From a virus, in IMG/VR virus record IMGVR_UViG_3300028025_000563, positions 1 to 58,017 of that record: a stretch of DNA of 58,017 nt; one strand, given 5' to 3'. The notes under the pieces are model-generated. The model was not told the DNA's origin. It made no database searches and saw only the letters and a list, made by a program, of their open reading frames with translations. Position 1 is the first letter of the stretch. The number at the start of each line of letters is the position of its first letter. Below, one piece after another: positions 2,966 to 37,310 of this stretch. A program made the translations under genes and the position numbers.

Positions 2966-3003
2966 GCAATAGTTGGTTGACGTAAAATGTAATACACTAT
3001 ATA
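2964..3003 (+). promoter_or_regulatory. Second early promoter candidate with shared upstream box
   Basis: AATGCAATAGTTGG (2964-2976) is nearly identical to boxes upstream of the 12254 and 10565 operons. It is followed directly by TTGACGTA (2977-2984) and an AT-rich CTATATAG (2997-3004) that could serve as -10. Compared with the 12188-12227 copy, about 20 bases are missing between the box and TTGACGTA. Which of the two overlapping promoters is active cannot be told from sequence. Confidence 0.45.
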
Positions 3004-3016
3004 GGAGATCAGACGA

Positions 3017-3199
3017 ATGAAACAAATTGAGACGTACACGAATGAACATTACGGGATTGAGTCTCGCATATACATGACCGAGTCAGGCTTCACTGTTGCG
3101 CTGCACGACCTTGATGCCGATGAAACTTTAAATCATTACTACCGTTTCACCACGCTTGCACAAGCAATTGTGAAAGCAAAACACATAGCTAACCTTTAG
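3017..3199 (+). CDS. Small early protein (60 aa)
   Basis: First gene after the promoter region, with the conserved AGGAGATCAGACGA leader. The product (MKQIETYTNEHYGIESRIYM...) is a small acidic alpha/beta protein with a C-terminal helix (TTLAQAIVKAKHIANL). No family is recognised. The next cassette begins at its stop codon. Confidence 0.7.
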   Translation: MKQIETYTNEHYGIESRIYMTESGFTVALHDLDADETLNHYYRFTTLAQAIVKAKHIANL

Positions 3200-3211
3200 G
3201 AGATCAGACGA

Positions 3212-3403
3212 ATGAACACAAAAGAATTGATGTCAAGAGAAGAGATCATTGAAAAGTATGTTGACCATTTAGTAGATGGTATGGATTGGGAAACAATGCA
3301 GCAATTTGTAACCGAGATACTGTGGGAACAGTTAGACAAGTTAGGTGACGCAGATTTACTGAATGAGGTATCCGACTATATGCCTAATTTATTCATTGAC
3401 TAA
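3212..3403 (+). CDS. Small, very acidic early protein (63 aa)
   Basis: ATG 3212 follows the second RBS cassette. The product MNTKELMSREEIIEKYVDHL... is predicted to be nearly all helical and has a large excess of Asp/Glu. Its high charge suggests a protein-protein inhibitor or DNA-mimic type role, but that is inference from charge only. No family is recognised. Confidence 0.7.
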   Translation: MNTKELMSREEIIEKYVDHLVDGMDWETMQQFVTEILWEQLDKLGDADLLNEVSDYMPNLFID

Positions 3404-8328: not shown

Positions 8329-8580
8329 TTATTTCAACCGTCTAATCAAATCAGCTAGATCATCTGCTGCTTGCCCTTTCACTGGCTGATAACTATCCTT
8401 CCAACCCTTACCTATCTCTTCACATACTACCGCACATCGATCACGCTCCAGTGCCAACAGTGCTTGCACCTTGTTCAGTAATTCCTGTGGCGAGAACTCA
8501 TACATCACATGGCTGCCCCCTAAATGCGGGACGTCTACCATGTGATCATGTAGTGCGAGATAGATTTCCTCGCGTGTCAT
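8329..8580 (-). CDS. Small phage protein of the 'ERDRCA' type (83 aa)
   Basis: The product ends ALERDRCAVVCEEIGKGWKD... then DDLADLIRRLK. An E-R-x-x-C-A-x-x-[CA] helix followed some residues later by A-x-x-I-R is common in short phage proteins of unknown function, and related segments occur at 12269-12478 and 15981-16181. The start overlaps the ParB-like stop by ATGA. Confidence 0.7.
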   Translation of the reverse strand: MTREEIYLALHDHMVDVPHLGGSHVMYEFSPQELLNKVQALLALERDRCAVVCEEIGKGWKDSYQPVKGQAADDLADLIRRLK

Positions 8581-9395
8581 TTACCTTCCTCATACTGCTT
8601 TAACTTCTTTTGGAGGGTAGCATTCTGCTTCATCAACTGCGCCTTCTCAGACTGGTATGTATCACGCGACTGCTTCACCGCCTTCAACTCTATCTCCAGT
8701 ACCTTGATCTGGTTACGCAGATCAGCAATCAAAGACTGAGCCATATCACGTTCAGCCGCCTCTGGACTAGCCGATACCACCGCAAGCTTATCTGTCAGCG
8801 ATTGGTTCTCTGCCTTCAGTAACTCAACAGCGTCAAAAAGTTGCTCTTTTTCTTCATCTGTTTTTTCTGACAGATAGGCTGAATCATCTTCCTTTTGATT
8901 CTTCTTCTCTGCTACTTTTAAAGTGTGTGTTTTACCACCACGCTCAAACTTAACCTCGTCTTTTGTTATGCCCATCTCTAAACGGATATGGCTAACCAAT
9001 GTGTTACTTACTTTACAAGCTTTGGCTATCTCACGATCACTCCATTCAGTCCACTCAAAGTCTTGCAGCATGGTGATGACAGCCTTACGTTTGTCAGCAT
9101 TACTACGGCGCAGGCCATGATCATTGTTGGCACTGAGAGAATACAGGATTGCGTCACGTAATGTACCAGTGACTACATTAGCATCAATCCCTGGCGATCC
9201 TGCTGCTTTGTAAGCAAAGTAACGGTGGAAACCATCGGCTAAATAGTAATCTACGCCATCGTGGTAAACAGTAACCGGCGGGAATACAGCACCGTTGGTT
9301 ATATCTTCGCAGTAATCTAATACTGTTTGTTGGTTGATCTCGGCACGCGCTTGTGTACCGCAATCAATTCTAATTTTATCTAAACCTATGTTCAT
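8577..9395 (-). CDS. ParB-like nuclease/DNA-binding domain protein (272 aa)
   Basis: An N-terminal ParB/Srx-type domain is indicated by VTVYHDGVDYYLADGFHRYF (41-60), with the DGFHR box in the position of the ParB GxxR motif. A helix-turn-helix (WSDREIAKACKVSNTLVSHI, about 118-137) follows, then a long coiled coil (about 180-270). Such proteins bind DNA and some hydrolyse nucleotides. In this replication operon a role in initiation, regulation or modification is possible but not shown. The start overlaps the small upstream gene by ATGA. Confidence 0.85.
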   Translation of the reverse strand: MNIGLDKIRIDCGTQARAEINQQTVLDYCEDITNGAVFPPVTVYHDGVDYYLADGFHRYFAYKAAGSPGIDANVVTGTLRDAILYSLSANNDHGLRRSNADKRKAVITMLQDFEWTEWSDREIAKACKVSNTLVSHIRLEMGITKDEVKFERGGKTHTLKVAEKKNQKEDDSAYLSEKTDEEKEQLFDAVELLKAENQSLTDKLAVVSASPEAAERDMAQSLIADLRNQIKVLEIELKAVKQSRDTYQSEKAQLMKQNATLQKKLKQYEEGK

Positions 9396-9696: not shown

Positions 9697-9859
9697 TTAT
9701 TGCATGGATGCTGCTGTTACCTACCAAAAACTTCTCATGTCCTGCTGTCTCCAACCGTCTGGTTAGATTCTCCAGTAACGTGCCCAGTTCTAACTTCTCG
9801 CCTTTAGGTATCGCTACGGTGGCACTAAACATTATTGTGTATTCATCAAAGTTGCTCAT
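9668..9859 (-). CDS. Small hypothetical protein (63 aa)
   Basis: The product MSNFDEYTIMFSATVAIPKG... is a small alpha/beta protein overlapping the upstream sigma gene by 14 bases and the downstream membrane gene by 29 bases. No family is recognised. The dense overlaps argue for translational coupling in the operon. Confidence 0.62.
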   Translation of the reverse strand: MSNFDEYTIMFSATVAIPKGEKLELGTLLENLTRRLETAGHEKFLVGNSSIHAINENEKREPF

Positions 9860-10565
9860 TATGTTTTACCTTTCTCCATTCAATAAGTTGATGACCTGAT
9901 ACTTTATTTTCAGTAATAGTGGCAGCTACATGTATATTTTTTGATCCTTGTAGCCAACTCTTTCCTGTCCATTTACTAAATGCTTGAAACCCATTTGATC
10001 TGCGTACATATATTCCTGCAATCATTGGGTGATACTTACTGCCATTTATCCATCCGTTCTGAGTAGTTTTAACATGCACCATCTCATCTGGATCTTCCCT
10101 ATCCCATCGCCTTACCCATTCCCGCTCCCATTCTCTTGGTGGTGGTTTAGGCTTTGGATCTAAATCAACTGGCTTATCCCAACAGGTATTCGTTTTAAAT
10201 GCCGTCCTCTCATACTCTTTTAACTCTTTCTCCGACTTAACCGTATCGCAATTAGGGTGCGCCTGCCACAGTCTTTGACTGCGTACTGGACTCCTCATCT
10301 TGCGTAATGCCTTGGCTTCTATCTGTCTTACCCGCTCCCTAGTTACACCAAGAATCTCCCCTATTTGTTCAAAGGTGTAGTCTCTATCCCTGTCTAATCC
10401 AAAATGCAATCTCAGTACTTTTGCTTCTCTGGGGGTGAGAGAATCTAGGCAATCATTCATTACCCTAGCCAAGTCCTTCTGCATTACTTCCTCTATAGGA
10501 TCAGGAAGAACGTAGTCCCAAGACAGCAGCTCTATAATGGTATCGATTTCAGGTTCGTAGTTCAT
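9846..10565 (-). CDS. Sigma-region-4 protein with C-terminal extension (239 aa)
   Basis: Residues about 40-93, DSLTPREAKVLRLHFGLDRD... through GVTRERVRQIEAKALRKMRS, match region 4 of primary sigma factors (RpoD type), including the HTH that reads the -35 element. Regions 1-3 are absent. Residues about 94-239 form a separate Trp-rich extension (WINGSKYHP, FSKWTGKSW) of unknown fold. It is the first gene of the replication operon and probably redirects host RNA polymerase. The start is uncertain: ATG 10565 is only about 8 bases from the -10, while Met28 (10484) has a good AGAGGA site. Confidence 0.85.
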   Translation of the reverse strand: MNYEPEIDTIIELLSWDYVLPDPIEEVMQKDLARVMNDCLDSLTPREAKVLRLHFGLDRDRDYTFEQIGEILGVTRERVRQIEAKALRKMRSPVRSQRLWQAHPNCDTVKSEKELKEYERTAFKTNTCWDKPVDLDPKPKPPPREWEREWVRRWDREDPDEMVHVKTTQNGWINGSKYHPMIAGIYVRRSNGFQAFSKWTGKSWLQGSKNIHVAATITENKVSGHQLIEWRKVKHNEQL

Positions 10566-10572
10566 AGCCTCA

Positions 10573-10602
10573 ATGGTATTCCTACATGTAGTGTCATGTC
10601 AA
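10573..10602 (-). promoter_or_regulatory. Promoter of the sigma/replication operon with palindrome
   Basis: On the - strand: -35 TTGACA (10602-10597), an 18-base spacer, and TACCAT (10578-10573) as -10. The spacer holds the palindrome CTACATGTAG (10582-10591). Upstream, a GCAATAG box lies 31 bases before TTGACA, exactly as at the 12219 promoter. Transcription would start close to the ATG at 10565. Confidence 0.65.
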
Positions 10603-10945
10603 CTGTTATATTCATACCAGAACAATCTATTGCAATCAACAATAAAAAAAAGCATAGGTCTCCCAAGGGTGATAGCCCAGCCTTTAACCCTACCGCAGGT
10701 TACGACTAGAGATATCTACCAACCCATTTGGCCTAAGATTCCTGACCAAACTAGTTTCCCCATAAGGCAGCGATTTATCGTCACAGAGTTTGTCTCACCA
10801 CTTGCCTCTGAGCTTGTGTAGTACCTCGCTGACAGTCTACGCGGCGTGCTTCGGGGTGTACGAAAGCCGGTGTTATATGTTGGTAGCAGCCCATTCAAGC
10901 CCACTTCTATCGCGACCAGTGCGGTCATTGCAGCGGAAAGTAAAA

Positions 10946-11037
10946 AGCCCTAAAGGCTAGACTCTCAGCGCGGCGGCACTCCCACAAGGGGTTAAAGAAT
11001 CTAGGCTCTAGGGCTCAGAAATTGTCAAGGCCGCCGC
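10946..11037 (-). ncRNA. Potential H-type pseudoknot
   Basis: Helix A pairs 10946-10961 with 11000-11015 (14 of 16 positions on the + strand; one mismatch becomes G-U on the - strand, so the - strand RNA pairs better). Helix B pairs GCGGCGGC (10970-10977) with GCCGCCGC (11030-11037), 8 of 8. The 5' arm of helix B lies inside the loop of helix A, so the helices interleave. No RNA family is recognised; strand is inferred from the wobble. Confidence 0.4.
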
Positions 11038-11088
11038 AATGACAGGGGAATTGTAAAGCAGAATATCTGGCGGATGCAAGTATTTCTA

Positions 11089-11144
11089 CCGCCCGTTTTA
11101 CCGCCCGTGAAAAACCGTGAAAGACCGTGAGAAACCGTGAAAAG
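11089..11144. repeat. Iteron-like phased 10-bp tandem repeats
   Basis: Four units CCGTGAAAAA, CCGTGAAAGA, CCGTGAGAAA and CCGTGAAAAG run head to tail at 11105, 11115, 11125 and 11135. Two CCGCCCGT units (11089 and 11101) precede them. The 10-base period places each copy on the same face of the helix, as for initiator-binding iterons. Position beside the replication operon fits an origin, but no initiator is identified. Confidence 0.65.
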
Positions 11145-11181
11145 AAATGTTATCAAAGTATCACTCCAATTTCGGAGGGAT

Positions 11182-11210
11182 AAAAAAAAGGGAGACCTTT
11201 GCGGCCTCCC
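11182..11210 (-). terminator. Intrinsic terminator for the HNH/VRR-NUC transcript
   Basis: GGGAGACC (11190-11197) and GGCCTCCC (11203-11210) form an 8-position stem with one mismatch and a 5-base loop. An A8 run at 11182-11189 becomes U8 after the hairpin on the - strand. It ends leftward transcription from 12174 before the sigma promoter. Confidence 0.8.
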
Positions 11211-11213
11211 GAA

Positions 11214-11384
11214 GATTCATGGGGAAAGTTCATGAATCGTTGCAGTATTGGTTCCGGTTACGATTATCCGGAGCGTATGTCGATGCTACATTGGCCTACG
11301 CCGACTTATTTAGGTACTCGCTGCGTCTGCGGGTTGCATCCATCTCAACCTTGACTAGTATCGGGATGATTATTCACAGCATCC
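11214..11384 (-). ncRNA. Hairpin array upstream of terminator (possible RNA or 3' UTR)
   Basis: Four perfect short stems occur in series: GATTCATG/CATGAATC (11214-11221/11231-11238), TCCGG/CCGGA (11253-11257/11268-11272), GGTTG/CAACC (11332-11336/11346-11350) and GGATG/CATCC (11364-11368/11380-11384). They lie between the HNH stop and the terminator, so on the - strand they would form a folded 3' UTR or processed RNA. No coding frame with a ribosome-binding site is seen here. Confidence 0.4.
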
Positions 11385-11388
11385 GCTC

Positions 11389-11403
11389 TTCCCAACAGGA
11401 ACA
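11389..11403. repeat. Direct repeat flanking HNH gene, left copy
   Basis: TTCCCAACAGGAACA is identical to 11867-11881 on the other side of the HNH gene. Weaker similarity extends on both sides (ATC...CGC before, AATAT after), suggesting an older repeat of about 30 bases. Confidence 0.75.
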
Positions 11404-11406
11404 ATA

Positions 11407-11853
11407 TTAACAAATAACTGGCGGTCTTCCAACAGATATTCTAAATTTGTTTATTGCATTTATCGCTTCTTCTTCAGATGCATGCATTCCTAAATAAATG
11501 TTTTTATAGTTAACGGTAACTTCTGCTTTCCATTTATTATAAATCTTGTATACCCCCGGACATTTCTTGCCAACGCTAGACCGCTGTCTATTCTTTACAT
11601 TCTCTGACGAAGAAATAATTCGTAAATTTTGTTTCCTGTTATCTAATCCATTTCCGTTTATGTGATCAACAACCAATTTAGAATCAGAAACATTTAATAT
11701 AAGTCTATGCATGCGTGTATTTTTTCCAGTCTTTGCATACAAAGCGCCCTTTGATTTAACTGAATACCATGAATATTTAGACAACATTTCATAGACATCC
11801 TCATCAACAATAACAACTTCTCCATGCTTCAAAATAATTTTTTTGGTTTCCAT
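11407..11853 (-). CDS. HNH endonuclease with AP2-like DNA-binding domain (148 aa)
   Basis: The centre reads MHRLILN...VVDHINGNGLDNRKQNLRI, the HNH_3-type nuclease core with DH-x-x-x-N and NLR. The C-terminal GVYKIYNKWKAEVTV...YLGMHASEEEAINAINKF is the AP2-like domain that usually accompanies it. This is the usual form of free-standing homing endonucleases in phages. The gene is more AT-rich than its neighbours and lies exactly between 15-base direct repeats, both signs of insertion as a mobile cassette. It has an AGGAG-poor leader (CGGAGATACAAC). Confidence 0.92.
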   Translation of the reverse strand: METKKIILKHGEVVIVDEDVYEMLSKYSWYSVKSKGALYAKTGKNTRMHRLILNVSDSKLVVDHINGNGLDNRKQNLRIISSSENVKNRQRSSVGKKCPGVYKIYNKWKAEVTVNYKNIYLGMHASEEEAINAINKFRISVGRPPVIC

Positions 11854-11866
11854 GTTGTATCTCCGT

Positions 11867-11881
11867 TTCCCAACAGGAACA
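11867..11881. repeat. Direct repeat flanking HNH gene, right copy
   Basis: Second copy of TTCCCAACAGGAACA, between the VRR-NUC stop (11887) and the HNH start (11853). See the left copy at 11389-11403. Confidence 0.75.
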
Positions 11882-11886
11882 GAATA

Positions 11887-12174
11887 TCACAGCTCTCTTA
11901 AAACCTGCAAGGCAGATTCAACACTGTTCACAATCACGCACGTACCGCCAGTCCACTCACGATGAAACTTCTCCTCGGCAGGCGTTAGCTTTTGTTTGCT
12001 CGGAACTTTCTCACCGTCCTTTACTTCCATCAGCACTGTGTGTTTGTTGTACCCTACAAGCAGATCAGGGATGCCATCGCCTTGCGTAATGATCCGAACT
12101 GTCGCTCCGAGAGCGCGTAATGCAAGCACGATCTCTCCTTGATTGTCATCGACCCGCCTTGCAAACTTACTCAT
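11887..12174 (-). CDS. VRR-NUC domain nuclease (95 aa)
   Basis: The protein has the layout of the stand-alone phage VRR-NUC fold of the PD-(D/E)XK superfamily: DNQGEIVLALRALGATVRI, then GDGIPDLLVG with the catalytic D, LMEVKDGEK with the E-x-K pair, and LTPAEEKFHREW. These act on branched or junction DNA. It is the first gene of the leftward operon and shares a divergent promoter region with the recombination operon at 12254, consistent with a role in replication/recombination intermediates. Start AGGAG-aaag-ATG. Confidence 0.9.
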   Translation of the reverse strand: MSKFARRVDDNQGEIVLALRALGATVRIITQGDGIPDLLVGYNKHTVLMEVKDGEKVPSKQKLTPAEEKFHREWTGGTCVIVNSVESALQVLREL

Positions 12175-12187
12175 TCTTTCTCCTAAT

Positions 12188-12247
12188 GCAACAGTTGGTT
12201 CCTGTGCGAATATAATAGTTGACGTATACTACATGTAGATATATCAT
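12188..12247 (+). promoter_or_regulatory. Promoter of the recombination operon with palindromic operator
   Basis: TTGACG (12219-12224), a 17-base spacer, TATCAT (12242-12247). The perfect 10-base palindrome CTACATGTAG sits in the spacer at 12229-12238. The upstream box GCAACAG..GTTC.TGT..GAATATAA.AG (12188-12218) is shared with the sigma promoter at the same 31-base distance. Predicted start near 12254 gives a leader of about 15 bases. Confidence 0.75.
12212..12239 (-). promoter_or_regulatory. Divergent promoter candidate for VRR-NUC
   Basis: On the - strand TCTACA (12239-12234) and TATTAT (12217-12212) are separated by 16 bases. The -35 overlaps the CTACATGTAG palindrome, so one regulator could control both directions. 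Confidence 0.4.
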
Positions 12248-12268: not shown

Positions 12269-12478
12269 ATGACTAGAGATGATGTTATTAGGATGGCGAA
12301 AGAAGCGGGTGTCCATGACTCATGGGATTTAAATTGGTGGGATCCGTACTATGAACGATTTGCAAAACTAGTCGCAGCAGCAGAGCGTGAAGCGTGTGCG
12401 AAGGTGTGTGATGGTTGGCCTGATTACAATGTTCAGGGATTAGCTGAAGCTATTAGAGCAAGGGGGAATCATGGCTGA
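12269..12478 (+). CDS. Small phage protein of the 'EREACAKVC' type (69 aa)
   Basis: ATG 12269 is chosen because GGAGG lies 8 bases upstream (12256-12260). The earlier in-frame ATG 12254 would be leaderless. The product has an AAAEREACAKVCDGW helix followed by LAEAIRARG, a recurrent motif pair in short phage proteins of unknown function. A tryptophan-rich WDLNWWDPYY segment precedes it. It is the first gene of the rightward recombination operon. Confidence 0.75.
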   Translation: MTRDDVIRMAKEAGVHDSWDLNWWDPYYERFAKLVAAAEREACAKVCDGWPDYNVQGLAEAIRARGNHG

Positions 12479-12782
12479 CCAAGTACTAGACCCAGAACGC
12501 GCAATGTTTCGTGATGCAGAGAAGAAGAAGCTAATTGCCACACGCACATCCGAAGTTGTAAGAGAAACCTTTATTAAAGAATATAAGAAAGATTTTAAGA
12601 AAGAGCCAGACCTAACTGACCCGATGATCAATATGTTCTTTAACTGTTGGCTCGCAGCACAGGGTGATCGTAAGTGGTTGACACCTGAAGAAATGGAAGA
12701 TGCAAAGAAGAAACAAATACTAAACCAGAAACGTAGGCAAACAATGATGGCAAATGGAATTAAACGAAGGGGGACTAAATGA
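12471..12782 (+). CDS. Hypothetical protein (103 aa)
   Basis: The product MADQVLDPERAMFRDAEKKK... is Lys-rich and helical, with NMFFNCWLAAQGDRKWLTPE in the middle and a basic C-terminus (QKRRQTMMANGIKRRGTK) that could contact nucleic acid. It overlaps the upstream gene by 8 bases and the downstream start by ATGA. No family is recognised. Confidence 0.68.
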   Translation: MADQVLDPERAMFRDAEKKKLIATRTSEVVRETFIKEYKKDFKKEPDLTDPMINMFFNCWLAAQGDRKWLTPEEMEDAKKKQILNQKRRQTMMANGIKRRGTK

Positions 12783-13000
12783 AAGCATTTCCAACACACA
12801 AAGAAGAAGGTATGGACTTACGTGATTACTTTGCAGCAAAGTCTATACAGCCTGCATTTGATATGCTTAAAAGTGATTTGGATTCAACTATACCTGAAGG
12901 TTATGAATGGGGGGATGCAGAAGACTTTGAAGAGGTAGCGAAGAGAGCTTACCAAATGGCCGATGCAATGATGAAGGAGAGAACAATTGAGCGAAACTAA
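12779..13000 (+). CDS. Conserved small phage protein (73 aa)
   Basis: The segment GMDLRDYFAAKSIQPAFDML matches the G-[MI]-x-L-R-D-Y-F-A-A-x-A motif of a small protein family common in phages of proteobacteria, of unknown function. The C-terminal AKRAYQMADAMMKER helix is also typical. The start overlaps the preceding stop. Confidence 0.75.
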   Translation: MKAFPTHKEEGMDLRDYFAAKSIQPAFDMLKSDLDSTIPEGYEWGDAEDFEEVAKRAYQMADAMMKERTIERN

Positions 13001-13148
13001 AGATATTCAAAGAGTATTTGTTTGGGATGAAGTTAACTGCAATTTTATTGAAACCATTCCTGGCGAACGACGAGATGGTATTTGCGTAACTTTTGATGGT
13101 GTAACAGGAAAGATTAAATCTGTGGAAAGTTTATATGAAACTAACTAA
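12987..13148 (+). CDS. Small hypothetical protein, TTG start (53 aa)
   Basis: TTG 12987 follows AAGGAGAGAACAA and the frame runs to TAA 13146-13148, overlapping both neighbours by 14 bases. The product (SETKDIQRVFVWDEVNCNFI...) looks like a small beta protein. The ribosome-binding site and overlaps support it; the non-ATG start lowers certainty. Confidence 0.5.
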   Translation: MSETKDIQRVFVWDEVNCNFIETIPGERRDGICVTFDGVTGKIKSVESLYETN

Positions 13149-14022
13149 TAACTTTAATTTGCCAGAGACATTTATCAATGTAATCAAACGCCCTCAATAC
13201 TCACGAGGTAAGGCGCAGATCAGTGTGACAGAGATGCTGAACTCACCACGTATTGTGCAGCTACGTCAGAAACATATGGATGATATCGAGACTGATGCAG
13301 CAGACATGGTGTGGAGTCTATTCGGTTCAGCAGTCCATAACATTCTTGAGCATGGCAAAGGTGAGAACCAAATCGTAGAAGAACGCCTGCACATAGACTT
13401 CAACGGTTGGCATATCTCTGGCGCAATTGACCTGCAAGAAATAACACCGAATGGTATCGGCATACGTGACTATAAAGTTACTGGCGCATGGGCAGTACAA
13501 CAGAACAAAACAGAGTGGATCGAGCAGCTAAACATCTACGCATGGTTAGTAGAGAAGGTTAAGTTTATTAAAGTAACTGACATAAAGATTATCGGTATCG
13601 TGCGTGACTGGTCTCGTCGTGATGCAGCTACCAAAGAAGGATACCCACAGGCGCCTATCGTTACCTTGGATATCCCACTGTGGGACATGGAAACACGCGA
13701 AGCATTTATAGCAGAGCGTTTAAATAAACATAACGAAGCTGTCTTTGCTATGGGTGTGGGTGATAACGTAGCGGAATGTACGTCAGAAGAAATGTGGGAG
13801 AAGCCTACTGTTTATGCCGTCCGTAAGATCGGTGGTGTGCGCGCTAAAACTTTGTTCAGTGATAAGGCTAAAGCAGAGGCAGAGTTAGTTACCTTAAATG
13901 CAAAGAAGGCTGACTATGAAATTGAAGTTAGAGAAGGTGGTAGGACAAGATGCGAGGGCTTTTGCCAAGTCGCTCAATTCTGTGATCAATATAAACAATA
14001 CTTGGCGAACAAGGGGAAATAA
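13135..14022 (+). CDS. Cas4/RecB-like PD-(D/E)XK exonuclease (295 aa)
   Basis: Nuclease motifs in order: GSAVHNILE (64-72), GAIDLQE with D99, RDYKVTG with D112 and K114, and EQLNIYAWL (130-138), the typical RecB motif IV Q-x-x-x-Y. Near the C-terminus RCEGFCQVAQFC places three Cys (about 273, 277, 283) where Cas4/AddB-like proteins hold an Fe-S cluster. It probably resects DNA ends to make ssDNA for the ERF annealing protein encoded immediately downstream (no gap). Confidence 0.85.
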   Translation: MKLTNNFNLPETFINVIKRPQYSRGKAQISVTEMLNSPRIVQLRQKHMDDIETDAADMVWSLFGSAVHNILEHGKGENQIVEERLHIDFNGWHISGAIDLQEITPNGIGIRDYKVTGAWAVQQNKTEWIEQLNIYAWLVEKVKFIKVTDIKIIGIVRDWSRRDAATKEGYPQAPIVTLDIPLWDMETREAFIAERLNKHNEAVFAMGVGDNVAECTSEEMWEKPTVYAVRKIGGVRAKTLFSDKAKAEAELVTLNAKKADYEIEVREGGRTRCEGFCQVAQFCDQYKQYLANKGK

Positions 14023-14757
14023 ATGAAAGCTATATACGCAGCACTAGTCAAAGCACAGAAGGGTTTCGGCCCCGCTTTGAAGTCTAGTACTAACCCACAT
14101 TTCCGTAGCAAGTATGCGGATCTGTCAGCCTGTATCGAGGCAGTTGTAGATTCTCTGAATGAGAATGGAATCATGCTGATGCAAAAGACGCATGAGGTAG
14201 AGAACGGCGTGATGATTGAAACCGTTTTTTTACACGAATCTGGCGAAGAAATGTCAGCAGGTAAACTGTTCATGCCTGCCACTAAGTTTGACGCCCAAGG
14301 CTTCGGTAGTGCTTTGAGTTACGCTCGGAGGTACTCGATTATGGCTGCCTGTGGCATCGCTCCAGAGGACGACGACGCTAACAGTGCGGTTAAATCTGCA
14401 CCACCGCCATTACCTAAACCAACGCCCAAGCCTGTACCAGTTGCGCCTGCAGTTGAGTCATTAAAACCAAGAACTATTGCTGATGAGGCAGCCAGTATTC
14501 CCAATAAAATGATGGGCTCGGCTGACCAATGGCAGCTAAAGATAAGCATTGATCCTGAATCTGATATCAAAGAATGGATAGAGATAGTCAGAGACTCTTC
14601 TGTGTTTATGTTGGACATGGCGCAAAACAAGAATGACACTATGAATATATTCAGAACCAACGCGAATATATATAACAAGTTGAAAGCAGTTAATTTAGAA
14701 GCATATGAATCCCTGATGGGGCAGTTTAAAATTTATAAGGAGAAGTTAGATGAGTGA
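14023..14757 (+). CDS. erf: ERF-family single-strand annealing protein (244 aa)
   Basis: The N-terminal 125 residues carry the ERF signature: AQKGFGPALKSSTNPHFRSK with YADLSACIEAV, ENGIMLMQ, and DAQGFGSALSYARRYSIMAA followed by GIAPEDDDAN. A proline-rich linker (PPPLPKPTPKPVPVAP) leads to a helical C-terminal domain. ERF proteins anneal ssDNA during phage recombination. It follows the exonuclease directly and is followed by an SSB-like gene, forming a recombination set. Confidence 0.95.
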   Translation: MKAIYAALVKAQKGFGPALKSSTNPHFRSKYADLSACIEAVVDSLNENGIMLMQKTHEVENGVMIETVFLHESGEEMSAGKLFMPATKFDAQGFGSALSYARRYSIMAACGIAPEDDDANSAVKSAPPPLPKPTPKPVPVAPAVESLKPRTIADEAASIPNKMMGSADQWQLKISIDPESDIKEWIEIVRDSSVFMLDMAQNKNDTMNIFRTNANIYNKLKAVNLEAYESLMGQFKIYKEKLDE

Positions 14758-15067
14758 ATACAAAAAACAAAAGTTCCCGAACAGCGGGATTCTTTCCAAA
14801 ACTAAGTCGCGCCTGCACCCTAAGTCGCCAGACATGGCAGGTGATATAACCATCGAAAGATCTTTGATCCGTCAGTTAATGGATGAGCAGGACGGCGATG
14901 ACGTAAAGATTAAACTGTCAGGCTGGACTAGATCAGGTGAGTACGGAGACTTTATTTCTCTTGCTGTAAATACTTACAAGCCACCTGTAGATGCTGCGGC
15001 GCAACAACCGCATCTGTCAGAATTGACAGATAAGCCGCCTGTGGATAACTCTGATGTCCCTTTCTAA
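14750..15067 (+). CDS. Candidate SSB-like protein (105 aa)
   Basis: The protein has a beta-rich middle (DVKIKLSGWTRSGEYGDFIS) and ends in a flexible Pro-rich tail finishing DNSDVPF. That resembles the acidic hydrophobic tip (D-[DI]-[IV]-P-F) with which SSB proteins recruit partners. Position after ERF supports ssDNA binding. I cannot assign a family, so the SSB role is inference. Confidence 0.6.
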   Translation: MSEYKKQKFPNSGILSKTKSRLHPKSPDMAGDITIERSLIRQLMDEQDGDDVKIKLSGWTRSGEYGDFISLAVNTYKPPVDAAAQQPHLSELTDKPPVDNSDVPF

Positions 15068-15491
15068 AATGGAAACGTCAGCATTCGAAGCCGTCAAGGT
15101 AGCGATGAAACAGGATAAGAGCGGCTATGTTCTTACCCTGTGCATTCACCCTGACGAAGTGCCAGAGGAAATCCTACGTGACTTTGTGGGCGCTCGTTAT
15201 CAGGTGGTAGTGGTACGCCTGACAGAAGATGAGCAGCCCATGAATCGTGAGCAGGAACTCGGCAGAGACTCTGTAAGAACAGCAGGTATGTTGTGCAGAG
15301 ATAAGGAGTTCTGGCGCTTCTTAAAGGAGGCAGGCCAGATCTTTGAGGCAGACGAGGAATCATCTATCGAGTGGCTCAAGTATGAACTGGGAGTACCTTC
15401 CCGCAGTGAAATACCTAAGAGCCAGATCGCAGTTAATAAACTAATCGGAATCAAACAGGAGTTTACTTTATGGAAACAGGCAAACGCTTAA
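15054..15491 (+). CDS. Conserved phage protein of recombination module (145 aa)
   Basis: SGYVLTLCIHPDEVPEEILR, DFVGARYQVVVVRL, ..RTAGMLCRDKEFWRFL and SRSEI are blocks I associate with a protein that commonly accompanies recombination genes in phages of proteobacteria. Its function is unknown. It overlaps the SSB-like gene by 14 bases. No clear Shine-Dalgarno is seen before ATG 15054 or the alternative ATG 15069. Confidence 0.72.
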   Translation: MSLSKMETSAFEAVKVAMKQDKSGYVLTLCIHPDEVPEEILRDFVGARYQVVVVRLTEDEQPMNREQELGRDSVRTAGMLCRDKEFWRFLKEAGQIFEADEESSIEWLKYELGVPSRSEIPKSQIAVNKLIGIKQEFTLWKQANA

Positions 15492-15751
15492 TCCCGTACT
15501 CGGTACACTTATCGGAAGATGTGTACCTTGCCTTGAAGTCGCATGCGCAGGATCGCAAAGCTTCGTCGATGGTACGTGATGCCATCACTATGCTATTGGA
15601 AGGTGGCAAGCCATTTGATAGTGGGTACAACCAAGCTGTTCGTGATGTAGTGCGGCTAGTAGGTAAGCATGATCAAGCTAACGCTATTAGTTGGCACGAA
15701 GTAACCATAGCAGATGACTTGATTGAAGAAATCAAAGGACTGCAAAAGTAA
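15470..15751 (+). CDS. Ribbon-helix-helix-like DNA-binding protein (93 aa)
   Basis: LIPYSVHLSEDVYLALKSHA then SSMVRDAITMLLEGG fits the beta strand-helix-helix of MetJ/Arc-type (CopG-like) repressors at about residues 7-46; a further helical domain follows. Such proteins bind short palindromes as dimers. It is therefore a reasonable but unproven candidate for the regulator that reads CTACATGTAG. The start overlaps the previous gene by 22 bases. Confidence 0.65.
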   Translation: METGKRLIPYSVHLSEDVYLALKSHAQDRKASSMVRDAITMLLEGGKPFDSGYNQAVRDVVRLVGKHDQANAISWHEVTIADDLIEEIKGLQK

Positions 15752-15765
15752 TAGGAGGTCGAGTG

Positions 15766-15984
15766 ATGCTTAGAGACGGTAAGTTTATTAAAGAAGATCC
15801 GCCTAAGATCGGTTGCAACTACATCCCGCCGTTCGAGCGGGAGTACAGCGACGAAGAACAAGCTATGCAGGAAATTAATCTTGGTAGCAAACCACGAATG
15901 GATTTTAAAGAATCCGATGTTATTTTTAGGATACTCATGATTTATTCTGCTCTTGCATTGTTATATGCACTCTTTAAGAAATGA
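15766..15984 (+). CDS. Small protein with C-terminal membrane anchor (72 aa)
   Basis: AGGAGGT (15753-15759) gives a 6-base spacing to ATG 15766, so this is preferred over GTG 15763. A soluble, charged N-terminal part is followed by a hydrophobic VIFRILMIYSALALLYALF and terminal KK, a tail-anchor layout. No family is recognised. The stop overlaps the next start (ATGA). Confidence 0.65.
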   Translation: MLRDGKFIKEDPPKIGCNYIPPFEREYSDEEQAMQEINLGSKPRMDFKESDVIFRILMIYSALALLYALFKK

Positions 15985-16181
15985 CGAAAGAACTGGTGAA
16001 GTTAGCCAAGAAAGCTGCGAAGGAACAAGACCTTGTATATGCCCCCGATATGGAAGCAATGATCTGGATGCAGCGCTTCTCAGAAATGATAACCATAACT
16101 GAACGAGAGCGGTGCGCTAGGTTGGCAGAGGAGTGGGAGCTGCCTGAACTAGCTGCCGCCATAAGGGAGAAGAACACATGA
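15981..16181 (+). CDS. Small phage protein of the 'ERERCA' type (66 aa)
   Basis: ITERERCARLAEEWELPELA continues AAIREKNT, the same helix-motif pair as the products at 12269-12478 and 8329-8580, suggesting divergent copies of one family within the window. Unknown function. Coupled to both neighbours by ATGA overlaps. Confidence 0.7.
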   Translation: MTKELVKLAKKAAKEQDLVYAPDMEAMIWMQRFSEMITITERERCARLAEEWELPELAAAIREKNT

Positions 16182-16456
16182 ACCCATACCTACAAGACAT
16201 ACTGCACAACATAACCACAAGGTTAGCGAAGTTAGAAGAGGCACCACCATCGTTATTAGATTCTGTACATTGTCAGTGTGGCGCATCGTGGAAATATAAA
16301 GATGGTGAGCTGGACTACAAACCATCAACAAAAAAGAAAGAATGGGTAGGGCTGACGGATAAGGAAGTTGTAATGCTTGCCTACCAATCCCAAGAAAATG
16401 AATGCACTGCAATTAGATTGGCAGAAGCAAAGCTAAAGGAGAAGAACAGTGAGTGA
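16178..16456 (+). CDS. Hypothetical protein (92 aa)
   Basis: The product has an N-terminal helix (NPYLQDILHNITTRLAKLEE), a CHC-like HCQCGASWKY segment, and ...WVGLTDKEVVMLAYQSQEN, where LTD-x-E-x-x-x-[ML]-A is a phrase common in short phage proteins. Function unknown. The start overlaps the preceding stop. Confidence 0.65.
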   Translation: MNPYLQDILHNITTRLAKLEEAPPSLLDSVHCQCGASWKYKDGELDYKPSTKKKEWVGLTDKEVVMLAYQSQENECTAIRLAEAKLKEKNSE

Positions 16457-16634
16457 TAAAAGATTCTGCACCGCCTGCCAGTGCGACAAGCCTGTAGAAG
16501 GTGGTTACTTAAAGACCGGAAAGATAGTGCGCTGGATTTGTAAGTCCTGTCATACTCGCATGTCCGAAAGCCCATACGCCCGAAAGAAAACTAATGAGAT
16601 GCGTCACTTGCGATTCACCCACCAACATTATTGA
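16449..16634 (+). CDS. Small zinc-finger-like protein, GTG start (61 aa)
   Basis: Start GTG 16449 overlaps the previous gene and follows AAAGGAGAAGAACA. C-x2-C pairs (FCTACQCDKP and WICKSCHTRM) could hold one zinc ion, as in small phage zinc-ribbon proteins that precede HNH genes. It overlaps the next zinc-ribbon gene by 41 bases in another frame. Confidence 0.62.
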   Translation: MSDKRFCTACQCDKPVEGGYLKTGKIVRWICKSCHTRMSESPYARKKTNEMRHLRFTHQHY

Positions 16635-16794
16635 TAGCCGTAAGTACCATGATCCAACTAGTGACTTTGATTTTGTTAATAGAAAGAGACTATGCAAATC
16701 CTGTGGGCATAAGTTTGTAACTATCGAAGTCACTGAAGATACGTGGATTAATATTCTTAATCAATCTGTGGAAGTTAATAGTAATGAACAATAA
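16594..16794 (+). CDS. NrdR-type zinc-ribbon protein (66 aa)
   Basis: MRCVTCDSPTNIIDSRKYHD, then NRKRLCKSCGHKFVTIEV, closely follows the NrdR zinc-ribbon pattern (C-x2-C, D-S-R, R-R-x-C-x2-C-G-x-[RK]-F-x-T-[FI]-E). The ATP-cone domain of NrdR is absent, so this is a stand-alone ribbon. It may bind DNA, but its role is unknown. Confidence 0.72.
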   Translation: MRCVTCDSPTNIIDSRKYHDPTSDFDFVNRKRLCKSCGHKFVTIEVTEDTWINILNQSVEVNSNEQ

Positions 16795-17053
16795 CCTAAC
16801 CGCAAAGCAGCGTGAACATATAGGTAGAGTTAAGGCTTTACCTTGTTCTGTATGTGATAAGCCAGGACCAAGTGCGGCTCACCACGTTAAGCAGCATCAG
16901 CAGTACACAGTGGTGGCTTTATGTTACGACTGTCACCAAGGCTCATTGCTTGGTTGGCATGGGCAGAAACGTGCGTGGGCAGTGCGAAAGATGGATGAAC
17001 TAGATGCGCTCAATATCACTACCGAGCGCCTCATAGATTCACTGCTTAGTTGA
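16784..17053 (+). CDS. HNH/Ref-like nuclease domain protein (89 aa)
   Basis: LPCSVCDKPGPSAAHHVKQH then VVALCYDCHQGSLLGWHGQK shows the Cys pairs and His residues of the HNH fold as found in the P1 Ref / DUF968-type group. It lies at the end of the recombination operon, which fits a nuclease acting with recombination. Its 3' end overlaps the convergent giant gene by 15 bases. Confidence 0.78.
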   Translation: MNNNLTAKQREHIGRVKALPCSVCDKPGPSAAHHVKQHQQYTVVALCYDCHQGSLLGWHGQKRAWAVRKMDELDALNITTERLIDSLLS

Positions 17054-36062: not shown

Positions 36063-37310
36063 TTAAGCTGTGTATGAACCAGATGATGTAAACGTAAGAA
36101 TGGTGTTTAAACCAGACACTGTTACGGATGGAGACCCTGTTACTACGCCAGTATAGCTAGATGTAGGTACCGCAACTATTACTGCTCCAGACCCACCAGC
36201 ACCACCGTTATTAGTAAAGCCACCGCCACCTCCACCGCCTGTGTTAACAGTTCCGTTAGCACCATTACCTGTTCCGGCTACGCCGTTTCCGCCACCACCT
36301 GAACCACCAGTACCGCCAGTACCACCAGTATTTCTACAGCTACCACCGCCACCGCCAGCGTAATAAACAGATGAACCTGTAATGGTTGATAAATATCCAA
36401 TACCGCCATTACCACCATTATTTGTAGCGGCAGCACCAACTGCTCCACCGCCTCCTCCACCACCACCTGCACCTGTTGTTGTACTAGATGTAGACGTACT
36501 TACGCCACCACCAAAACCTTGACCTGCTGTACCTGATCCGCCAGCAATGCCTGTACCACCACCACCACCGCCAGAGCCTCCGCTATTACCAGCATATCTG
36601 CCTGCTAAGTTTGTACCACCATATCCACCACCAATAGCAGTAGCGCCAAAACCTGTTGAATCAGTACCATTAACAGCTTGCGCTCCACCATTTATTTGGC
36701 CTGCGCCACCTGCGCCAACAACAAAAGAATATGTTGTACCTACAGTTAATGACGCAGTATTAGCTACATATCCACCGCCGCCACCACCTCCACCATAAGC
36801 TGCTGCTCCGCCACCACCTGCACCGCCACCACCGGCAATAACTAAATAAGCTGCTGAATAAGTTTTTGATTGATTAAATTGATACCAATTTGCGCCGTCA
36901 TACCATTCGCAATAACCTGTTGTACTGTTGTAACGAAGTGATCCCGTAGTCGCAGATACGGGTCTTTGTGCTGTAGTACCTGAAGGAATATCAAAAAATC
37001 CAGTGCTTGTATTAGCTTGGTCAGATACCGCAGCAGGAGTTGATGCCCCGCCACCGCCAGCAATAGCTGGTAAGCCTAAATATAAAACGCCTATGTTGTT
37101 TGTACCTGTAGGAGGTGCAGGAGAAAATGTTAGTGTTACTCCAGATACGGTATATGTATTAGGGTTCTGCACCACGCCAGATATAGATACAATAATTGAA
37201 GTTGTACCGGCTGGCGCATACGACATCGTAAATGCAGTTGTTGATCCATTACCGCTGAACTGATCAAACGGAAAAGATGCTGTTGTTGGTTGTGCGCCTA
37301 TATATGACAT
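36063..37310 (-). CDS. Glycine-rich tail fibre / adhesin (415 aa)
   Basis: The anchor module SYIGAQPTTASF...NPNTYTVSGVTLTFSPAP (1-85) is shared with 40220-40888. A W-Y spacer (YCEWYDGANWYQFNQ) leads to a Gly-rich domain (AYLVIAGGGGAGGGG onward) with polyglycine tracts, like the polyglycine adhesins of other phages. It ends in a GSPSVTVSGLNTILTFTSSG phrase also found in 38550-40223. Low complexity means the internal repeats may vary between isolates. Confidence 0.78.
   Translation of the reverse strand: MSYIGAQPTTASFPFDQFSGNGSTTAFTMSYAPAGTTSIIVSISGVVQNPNTYTVSGVTLTFSPAPPTGTNNIGVLYLGLPAIAGGGGASTPAAVSDQANTSTGFFDIPSGTTAQRPVSATTGSLRYNSTTGYCEWYDGANWYQFNQSKTYSAAYLVIAGGGGAGGGGAAAYGGGGGGGGYVANTASLTVGTTYSFVVGAGGAGQINGGAQAVNGTDSTGFGATAIGGGYGGTNLAGRYAGNSGGSGGGGGGTGIAGGSGTAGQGFGGGVSTSTSSTTTGAGGGGGGGGAVGAAATNNGGNGGIGYLSTITGSSVYYAGGGGGSCRNTGGTGGTGGSGGGGNGVAGTGNGANGTVNTGGGGGGGFTNNGGAGGSGAVIVAVPTSSYTGVVTGSPSVTVSGLNTILTFTSSGSYTA

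Follow-up and report, generated by a model that had tools for sequence, protein, structure and literature searches.

An NrdR-like zinc ribbon as the probable reader of an operator shared by two divergent early promoters of a phage

Two divergent operons of a phage carry the same palindrome between the -35 and -10 elements of their promoters, which raises the question of what protein would read it and to what effect. The window, i.e., the whole virus record of 58,017 bp that was analysed here, was compared with 80 related IMG/VR loci obtained from a helicase search, giving 81 sequences and 1.07 Mb in total. No relatives came from a search with the sigma protein encoded in the window, nor from one of the phage collection at the DNA level. 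The capsid relatives are spread over MAG contigs of numerous unrelated phyla, so no host is assigned.

The shared palindrome at the two early promoters

Both promoters are of the sigma-70 type. On the minus strand, TTGACA (10602-10597) and TACCAT (10578-10573) are separated by an 18-nt spacer, with the same position and geometry in relatives, and this promoter drives the genes of a sigma-70 region 4 protein (9846-10565, minus strand, the first gene of the operon; Pfam Sigma70_r4, 8.1e-20), a ParB-like protein (8577-9395), and a helicase. The sigma-4 ATG at 10565 would be nearly leaderless (about +1), so the ATG at 10484, with GAGGAAG ahead of it, may be the real start. On the plus strand, TTGACG (12219-12224), a 17-nt spacer, and TATCAT (12242-12247) form the promoter that drives the recombination gene cluster (12269-17053, plus strand; probably a single operon, judging from gene order), with genes for an exonuclease (13135), an ERF annealing protein (14023), an SSB-like protein (14750), a ribbon-helix-helix (RHH)-like protein (15470), and a zinc ribbon (16594). 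The full layouts are TGCAATAGATTGTTCTGGTATGAATATAACAG-TTGACA-TGACACTACATGTAGGAA-TACCAT (10634-10573, minus strand) and TGCAACAGTTGGTTCCTGTGCGAATATAATAG-TTGACG-TATACTACATGTAGATA-TATCAT (12187-12247, plus strand). About 770 nt of noncoding DNA (10640-11405) lie between the divergent operons; this region has no Rfam match and contains repeats like ACCGTGAAA at about 11090-11145, which look iteron-like and might mark a replication origin.

A preliminary description of this DNA had placed a perfect palindrome in both spacers, and it is there: CTACATGTAG, hereafter operator O1, occupies 10582-10591 in the sigma-operon spacer and 12229-12238 in the recombination-promoter spacer, one site per promoter, with an NrdR-box-like core (C-N8-G, central AT) that is kept as CTANATNTAG in relatives. 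These are the only two copies of CTACATGTAG in 58,017 bases; far from being frequent elsewhere, the palindrome is found at these promoters alone. Two extra matches to CTAGATGTAG, at 36157 and 36484, are inside a tail-fibre-type coding region, far from promoters. A Markov-chain model expects TTGAC plus the palindrome 0.003 times per genome against 2 observed.

The scan of this genome and its relatives for the palindrome near TTGAC gave the same picture: 45 of the 50 CTANATNTAG sites in the 81 sequences lie less than 60 bp 3' of TTGAC, against 0-7 such sites for each of eleven similarly shaped control palindromes. Relatives retain both the palindrome and the upstream box, again at this divergent early pair. 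O1 has its first base at TTGAC+10 in 36 of the 38 unique cases among 48 unique promoters, and a second site, O2, which is often present, starts at +31 to +35, 21-25 bp from O1, where it covers the start site and reaches the ribosome-binding site (RBS). Operator-bearing records of 53-67 kb have two to four strict CTANATNTAG sites each; in eight of nine such records every strict site is at early promoters, the ninth, G004, having one of its three elsewhere. Scanning IMG/VR for TRTTGACA-N4-CTASATSTAG returned 27 stretches, and nearly all those inspected are this promoter type, with L150 and L154 as clear exceptions.

Seen in the window alone, where the two promoters resemble each other over some 50 bp, the palindrome might be explained by chance or by the shared ancestry of two recently duplicated promoters, with no regulator involved. 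This explanation is already contradicted by the relatives, in which CTANATNTAG at +10/+33 and the box at 31 persist while the rest of the promoter sequence varies, and we give it practically no weight. In nine operator-lacking relatives (L046, L054, L059, L064, L065, L071, L072, L077, and L078) the exo promoters carry other repeated motifs, CAGTTATAACATACYTGTTGACA, ACCAGTTAYAAT, or ACCTGYTATATT, which suggests a different regulator specificity. For the L034/L223-L226 group, no upstream promoters were found; the contigs seem to end before reaching them.

A third promoter, at 2964-2984, had been counted into the same regulon. The better promoter match before gene 3017-3199 is TTGACA (2936-2941)-N17-TAATAA (2959-2964) on the plus strand, with GCAATAG (2966-2972) directly 3' of that -10; CTANATNTAG is absent from this region (2936-2984), and TTGACGTA, which follows GCAATAG, is not kept in L022, L039, and L034, whose orthologous leaders do retain the upstream TTGACA. 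With its box after the -10, an unconserved TTGACGTA, and no CTANATNTAG, we rejected it as a member. A ribosome-binding context, AGGAGATCAGACG, is repeated before small genes here (window 3003-3018 and 3199-3214) and is kept across relatives. The proposal of one regulon, with an operator between -35 and -10 and a phage-encoded regulator, is therefore retained for the two divergent promoters and given up for the third promoter and, as discussed below, for the binders named with it: the two early promoters probably form one small phage regulon whose operator has a phage-encoded reader.

The upstream box and the mirror element

The upstream box is exactly 31 nt before TTGAC at both promoters, as had been described, in the form GCAATAG (10633-10627, minus strand) and GCAACAG (12188-12194, plus strand), and it is kept in relatives. 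The expected number of such box-31-TTGAC arrangements is 0.023 per genome in the Markov-chain model, against 2 observed, and the window has two copies of the box half-site, only at these two promoters. GAATATAAYAG, reported together with the box, is found directly before TTGAC at both window promoters, whereas relatives have only A/T-rich sequence or CAGGAAC there. All matches in an independent IMG/VR scan for TGCAAYASATNGTTCYKGT that have TTGAC at 31 also carry a CTANATNTAG-type operator, or a one-base variant of it, in the spacer.

The promoter alignment identifies the GCAAYAG box as an arm of a 36-bp element that is mirror-symmetric about a point 14 nt before TTGAC, with outer arms CAAYA/TRTTG and inner arms GTTCCTG/CAGGAAC. 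Class 1 and class 2 promoters have both outer arms (or a near match) plus one inner arm, the left one in class 1 (most exo promoters) and the right one in class 2 (most parB promoters). Aligned with relatives, both window promoters fall into class 1, i.e., TGCAATAGATTGTTCTGG ... CAGTTGAC at the sigma operon (10598-10634, minus strand, holding the box 10633-10627) and TGCAACAGTTGGTTCCTG ... TAGTTGAC at the recombination operon (12187-12223, plus strand, holding the box 12188-12194), with a right outer arm, AGTTG, that is a poorer match. A third class comprises the exo promoters of L019-L022, L026, L029, and L035, where the box is one nt closer and this position has no clear inner arm. Extra box half-sites without a promoter are seen near the early promoters of some relatives (L114 12788-12806, minus strand; L127 9176-9194, minus strand; L096; L170 8905, plus strand), adjoining a conserved, structured-looking stretch, GTGACGAAAGCGGATG...GGATGAGAGAAAGC.

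L052 has the mirror element without the palindrome, and in the parB promoters of L048 and L052 the TTG arm of the element is not the -35. Both observations suggest that the mirror element is a site distinct from the palindrome and would have its own, separate reader. The RHH domain of PutA reads GTTGCA, the complement of TGCAAC, which makes the RHH-like protein (15470-15751, plus strand) a lead, albeit an unproven one, as the candidate reader of the 36-bp element.

It could be argued that the main control is activation through this element, with the palindrome a minor modulator, or that the protein bound at the palindrome is itself an activator. The centre of the mirror element at about -50 suits a class-I activator, and its spacing is kept to the base, including in L052 without the palindrome and in the parB promoters of L048 and L052. 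However, a near-consensus -35 and 17-nt spacers need no untwisting of the MerR type (spacers are 17-18 nt, and the overlong 19-20 bp spacer of MerR-type activation was not seen), and repressors typically sit where O2 does, over the start site and RBS. For these reasons we favor repression and consider activation unlikely.

A free-standing zinc ribbon that accompanies the operator

When the window genes were compared with seven operator-bearing and three operator-lacking genomes, few were confined to the operator-bearing group, and among the genes checked, 16594-16794 (plus strand) alone combines this confinement with a recognisable DNA-binding domain. It encodes a zinc ribbon with a D[ST]R motif. 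In records of at least 50 kb, such a ribbon is present in 10 of 10 operator-bearing and 0 of 4 operator-lacking genomes (Fisher p 0.001, kinship ignored). One genome without the operator, G012, encodes a PF22811 protein that is more divergent and reads EAR where the others have D[ST]R, and counting it in gives p = 0.011; a weak ribbon match in G009 was discarded, as it has no CxxC. Two partial contigs, L045 and L077, encode a DSR ribbon but show no operator to match it, and L069 and L075 combine a variant ribbon with variant sites at the exo promoter. Please note that the small genes at 15763 and 15981 co-occur with the operator as well as the ribbon does, and that co-occurrence within related phages makes the effective sample small.

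The same comparison bears on the proteins that the preliminary description had named as binders of the palindrome. The RHH protein and the ParB-like protein are DNA-binding-type early proteins encoded in the regulated operons, and both families are able to read short palindromes. Both proteins are, however, present in relatives without the operator as well, the DNA-reading strand of the RHH protein (KRLIPYSVHL) is nearly unchanged in these relatives, and we know of no CTANATNTAG site for either family; it is very unlikely in our view that one of them reads the palindrome. The sigma-4 protein was dropped as a regulator of the regulon, as none of the other operator-bearing genomes compared has it. 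The VRR-NUC gene (11887-12174) and gene 16784-17053 are 61-82% identical to those of operator-lacking relatives and have no counterpart in the operator-bearing genomes compared, so the phage appears to be a mosaic of both groups.

The ribbon itself is a free-standing NrdR-type domain of 66 aa. It matches Pfam PF22811 over the full model (1-42/42) at 1.5e-9, with 38.1 bits against a cut-off of 27.2, and TIGR00244, the full NrdR, at 4.7e-7 over model positions 1-55; with 30 bits against 124.65 it stays below the equivalog cut-off because the ATP-cone is missing. A sequence profile finds NrdR in the PDB at 1.4e-6. The AlphaFold model (pLDDT 89.5) retrieves only NrdR chains at Foldseek ranks 1-9 (best E 4e-3, probability 1.00). 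Across ten aligned phage ribbons, C3, C6, C34, C37, D14, and R16 are invariant, so the two CxxC pairs and the Asp-x-Arg of the NrdR ribbon are in place; in place of the RRRR backbone-contact motif of NrdR, the phage ribbons have R-x-R (R30 and R32 invariant, neighbours variable). Neither an ATP-cone (PF03477; 12 of 14 control genomes positive) nor an RNR large subunit (controls positive) was found in the 14 genomes searched. PHROGs lists the protein as phrog_36879, of unknown function, and a tblastn search with it against INPHARED gave no match.

Counting from the recombination promoter, the window's ribbon gene is the last but one in its cluster. The other operator-bearing genomes examined have it on the same strand as well, 0.7-7 kb further along and preceded by a run of genes that mostly share its strand; where it lies about 7 kb downstream, as in several relatives, it may have an internal promoter. 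Several other viral contigs (L227-L236, L240, and L241) also encode D[ST]R ribbons, about 58-100 aa long, that lack an ATP-cone, and L232-L235 have a palindrome, CAAAATTTTG, ahead of a start codon. A search for operators in distantly related ribbon-bearing phages found relaxed boxes with no consistent promoter context.

Proposed operator recognition and control, and known systems

The consensus of bacterial NrdR boxes is acaCwAtATaTwGtg (PMC4009431). In the operator's register, CTANATNTAG fits all positions of the core CwAtATaTwG except the variable t/a at core positions 4 and 7: C and G are at the ends of the ten bases, AT is in the centre, and T/A is at the w positions. The aca/tgt flanks of the bacterial boxes are not kept. 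In the NrdR-DNA structure from S. coelicolor, specificity comes from D15 and R17, which read conserved C:G pairs (positions 9 and 18) at either end of the core, and the central AT bases are the site of a kink of ~90 degrees (PMC9110341). The corresponding base-reading residues of the phage ribbons are the invariant D14 and R16.

Since the operator fits the general core of the NrdR box, the NrdR of the host might bind it and tie the early operons to host dATP/ATP, while the phage ribbon does another job, e.g., competing at host RNR genes; infection by the phage SpSL1 can indeed derepress the host NrdR regulon in pneumococcus (PMC6755750). The spacing of the sites makes this less likely. NrdR tetramers require a pair of 16-bp boxes separated by 14-17 or 24-27 bp, which puts the box centres at distances of 30-33 or 40-43 bp (PMC12051234), whereas the phage sites are single or have centres 21-25 bp apart, equal to 5-9 bp between 16-bp boxes. 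The NrdR flanks are not kept at the phage sites either, and the presence of the operator follows a phage gene. We regard binding by host NrdR as quite unlikely.

We instead propose, with a probability of roughly 0.7, that the phage's own 66-aa NrdR-like ribbon binds CTACATGTAG/CTANATNTAG and represses both early operons, its own included. The zinc ribbons of NrdR pair via a beta-sheet, and the smallest NrdR unit is a dimer (PMC12176259, PMC12051234), so a dimer of cone-less ribbons could bind a single box. Such a dimer would occupy the NrdR-box-type operator in each spacer and, probably with a sharp NrdR-like kink, block RNA polymerase at both promoters. As the ribbon gene is distal in a cluster driven by one promoter, its product would come late; accumulating after the early genes are read, it would switch off both operons and thereby its own synthesis, i.e., a self-limiting pulse. 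With no ATP-cone in the protein or the genome, binding should be independent of ATP/dATP, unlike that of bacterial NrdR. Taken together, the operator sequence, its spacing, and the co-occurring gene suggest early genes silenced by a cut-down NrdR that lacks the nucleotide-sensing part.

This reading would assign a probable target and site to the phage family phrog_36879 and tie it to a structurally solved mode of DNA reading; it bears both on DNA recognition by NrdR (one box, a dimer without an ATP-cone) and on early-gene timing in this phage group. The core box is common to bacterial RNR promoters, so the phage ribbon might also act on host nucleotide synthesis. More tentatively, and with a chance that we put at a little under even, free-standing, nucleotide-blind NrdR ribbons could be a recurrent class of phage repressor, in which the DNA-reading domain and the box of the RNR regulator were taken over without the sensor and put to use in timing early genes, with host RNR promoters as a possible additional target.

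The annotation of NrdR in viruses is already known, and our literature searches found no paper on a phage early promoter with NrdR-type operators. A gene of the cyanophage S-SRP02 (PMC8790148) and genes of STIV-group viruses (PMC5894146) are annotated as NrdR, and the passages concerned offer the annotation only, with no operator or target given. NrdR proper (TIGR00244; PF22811 plus PF03477) is a bacterial repressor of RNR genes, with which the phage ribbon shares the full-length Pfam ribbon, the Asp-x-Arg, and the four Cys ligands, as well as an operator core C-N8-G with a central AT and sites that overlap the RNA polymerase binding region. The phage ribbons differ in being 62-68 aa long, lacking the ATP-cone, and staying below the equivalog cut-off; their targets would be early genes, not RNR genes, with sites that are single or paired 21-25 bp apart and do not keep the aca/tgt flanks.

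Further close parallels are P22 Arc, P22 Mnt, and lambda Cro, autorepressors of phage early promoters that act as small dimers and shut off early transcription. Here, too, a small phage protein is encoded in the regulated region, its putative operator lies between and around the -35 and -10 elements of early promoters, with strict sites almost entirely confined there (G004 being the exception), and two divergent promoters would be under one control. A difference is in the fold, which is ribbon-helix-helix or HTH in those repressors and an NrdR-type zinc ribbon in this phage.
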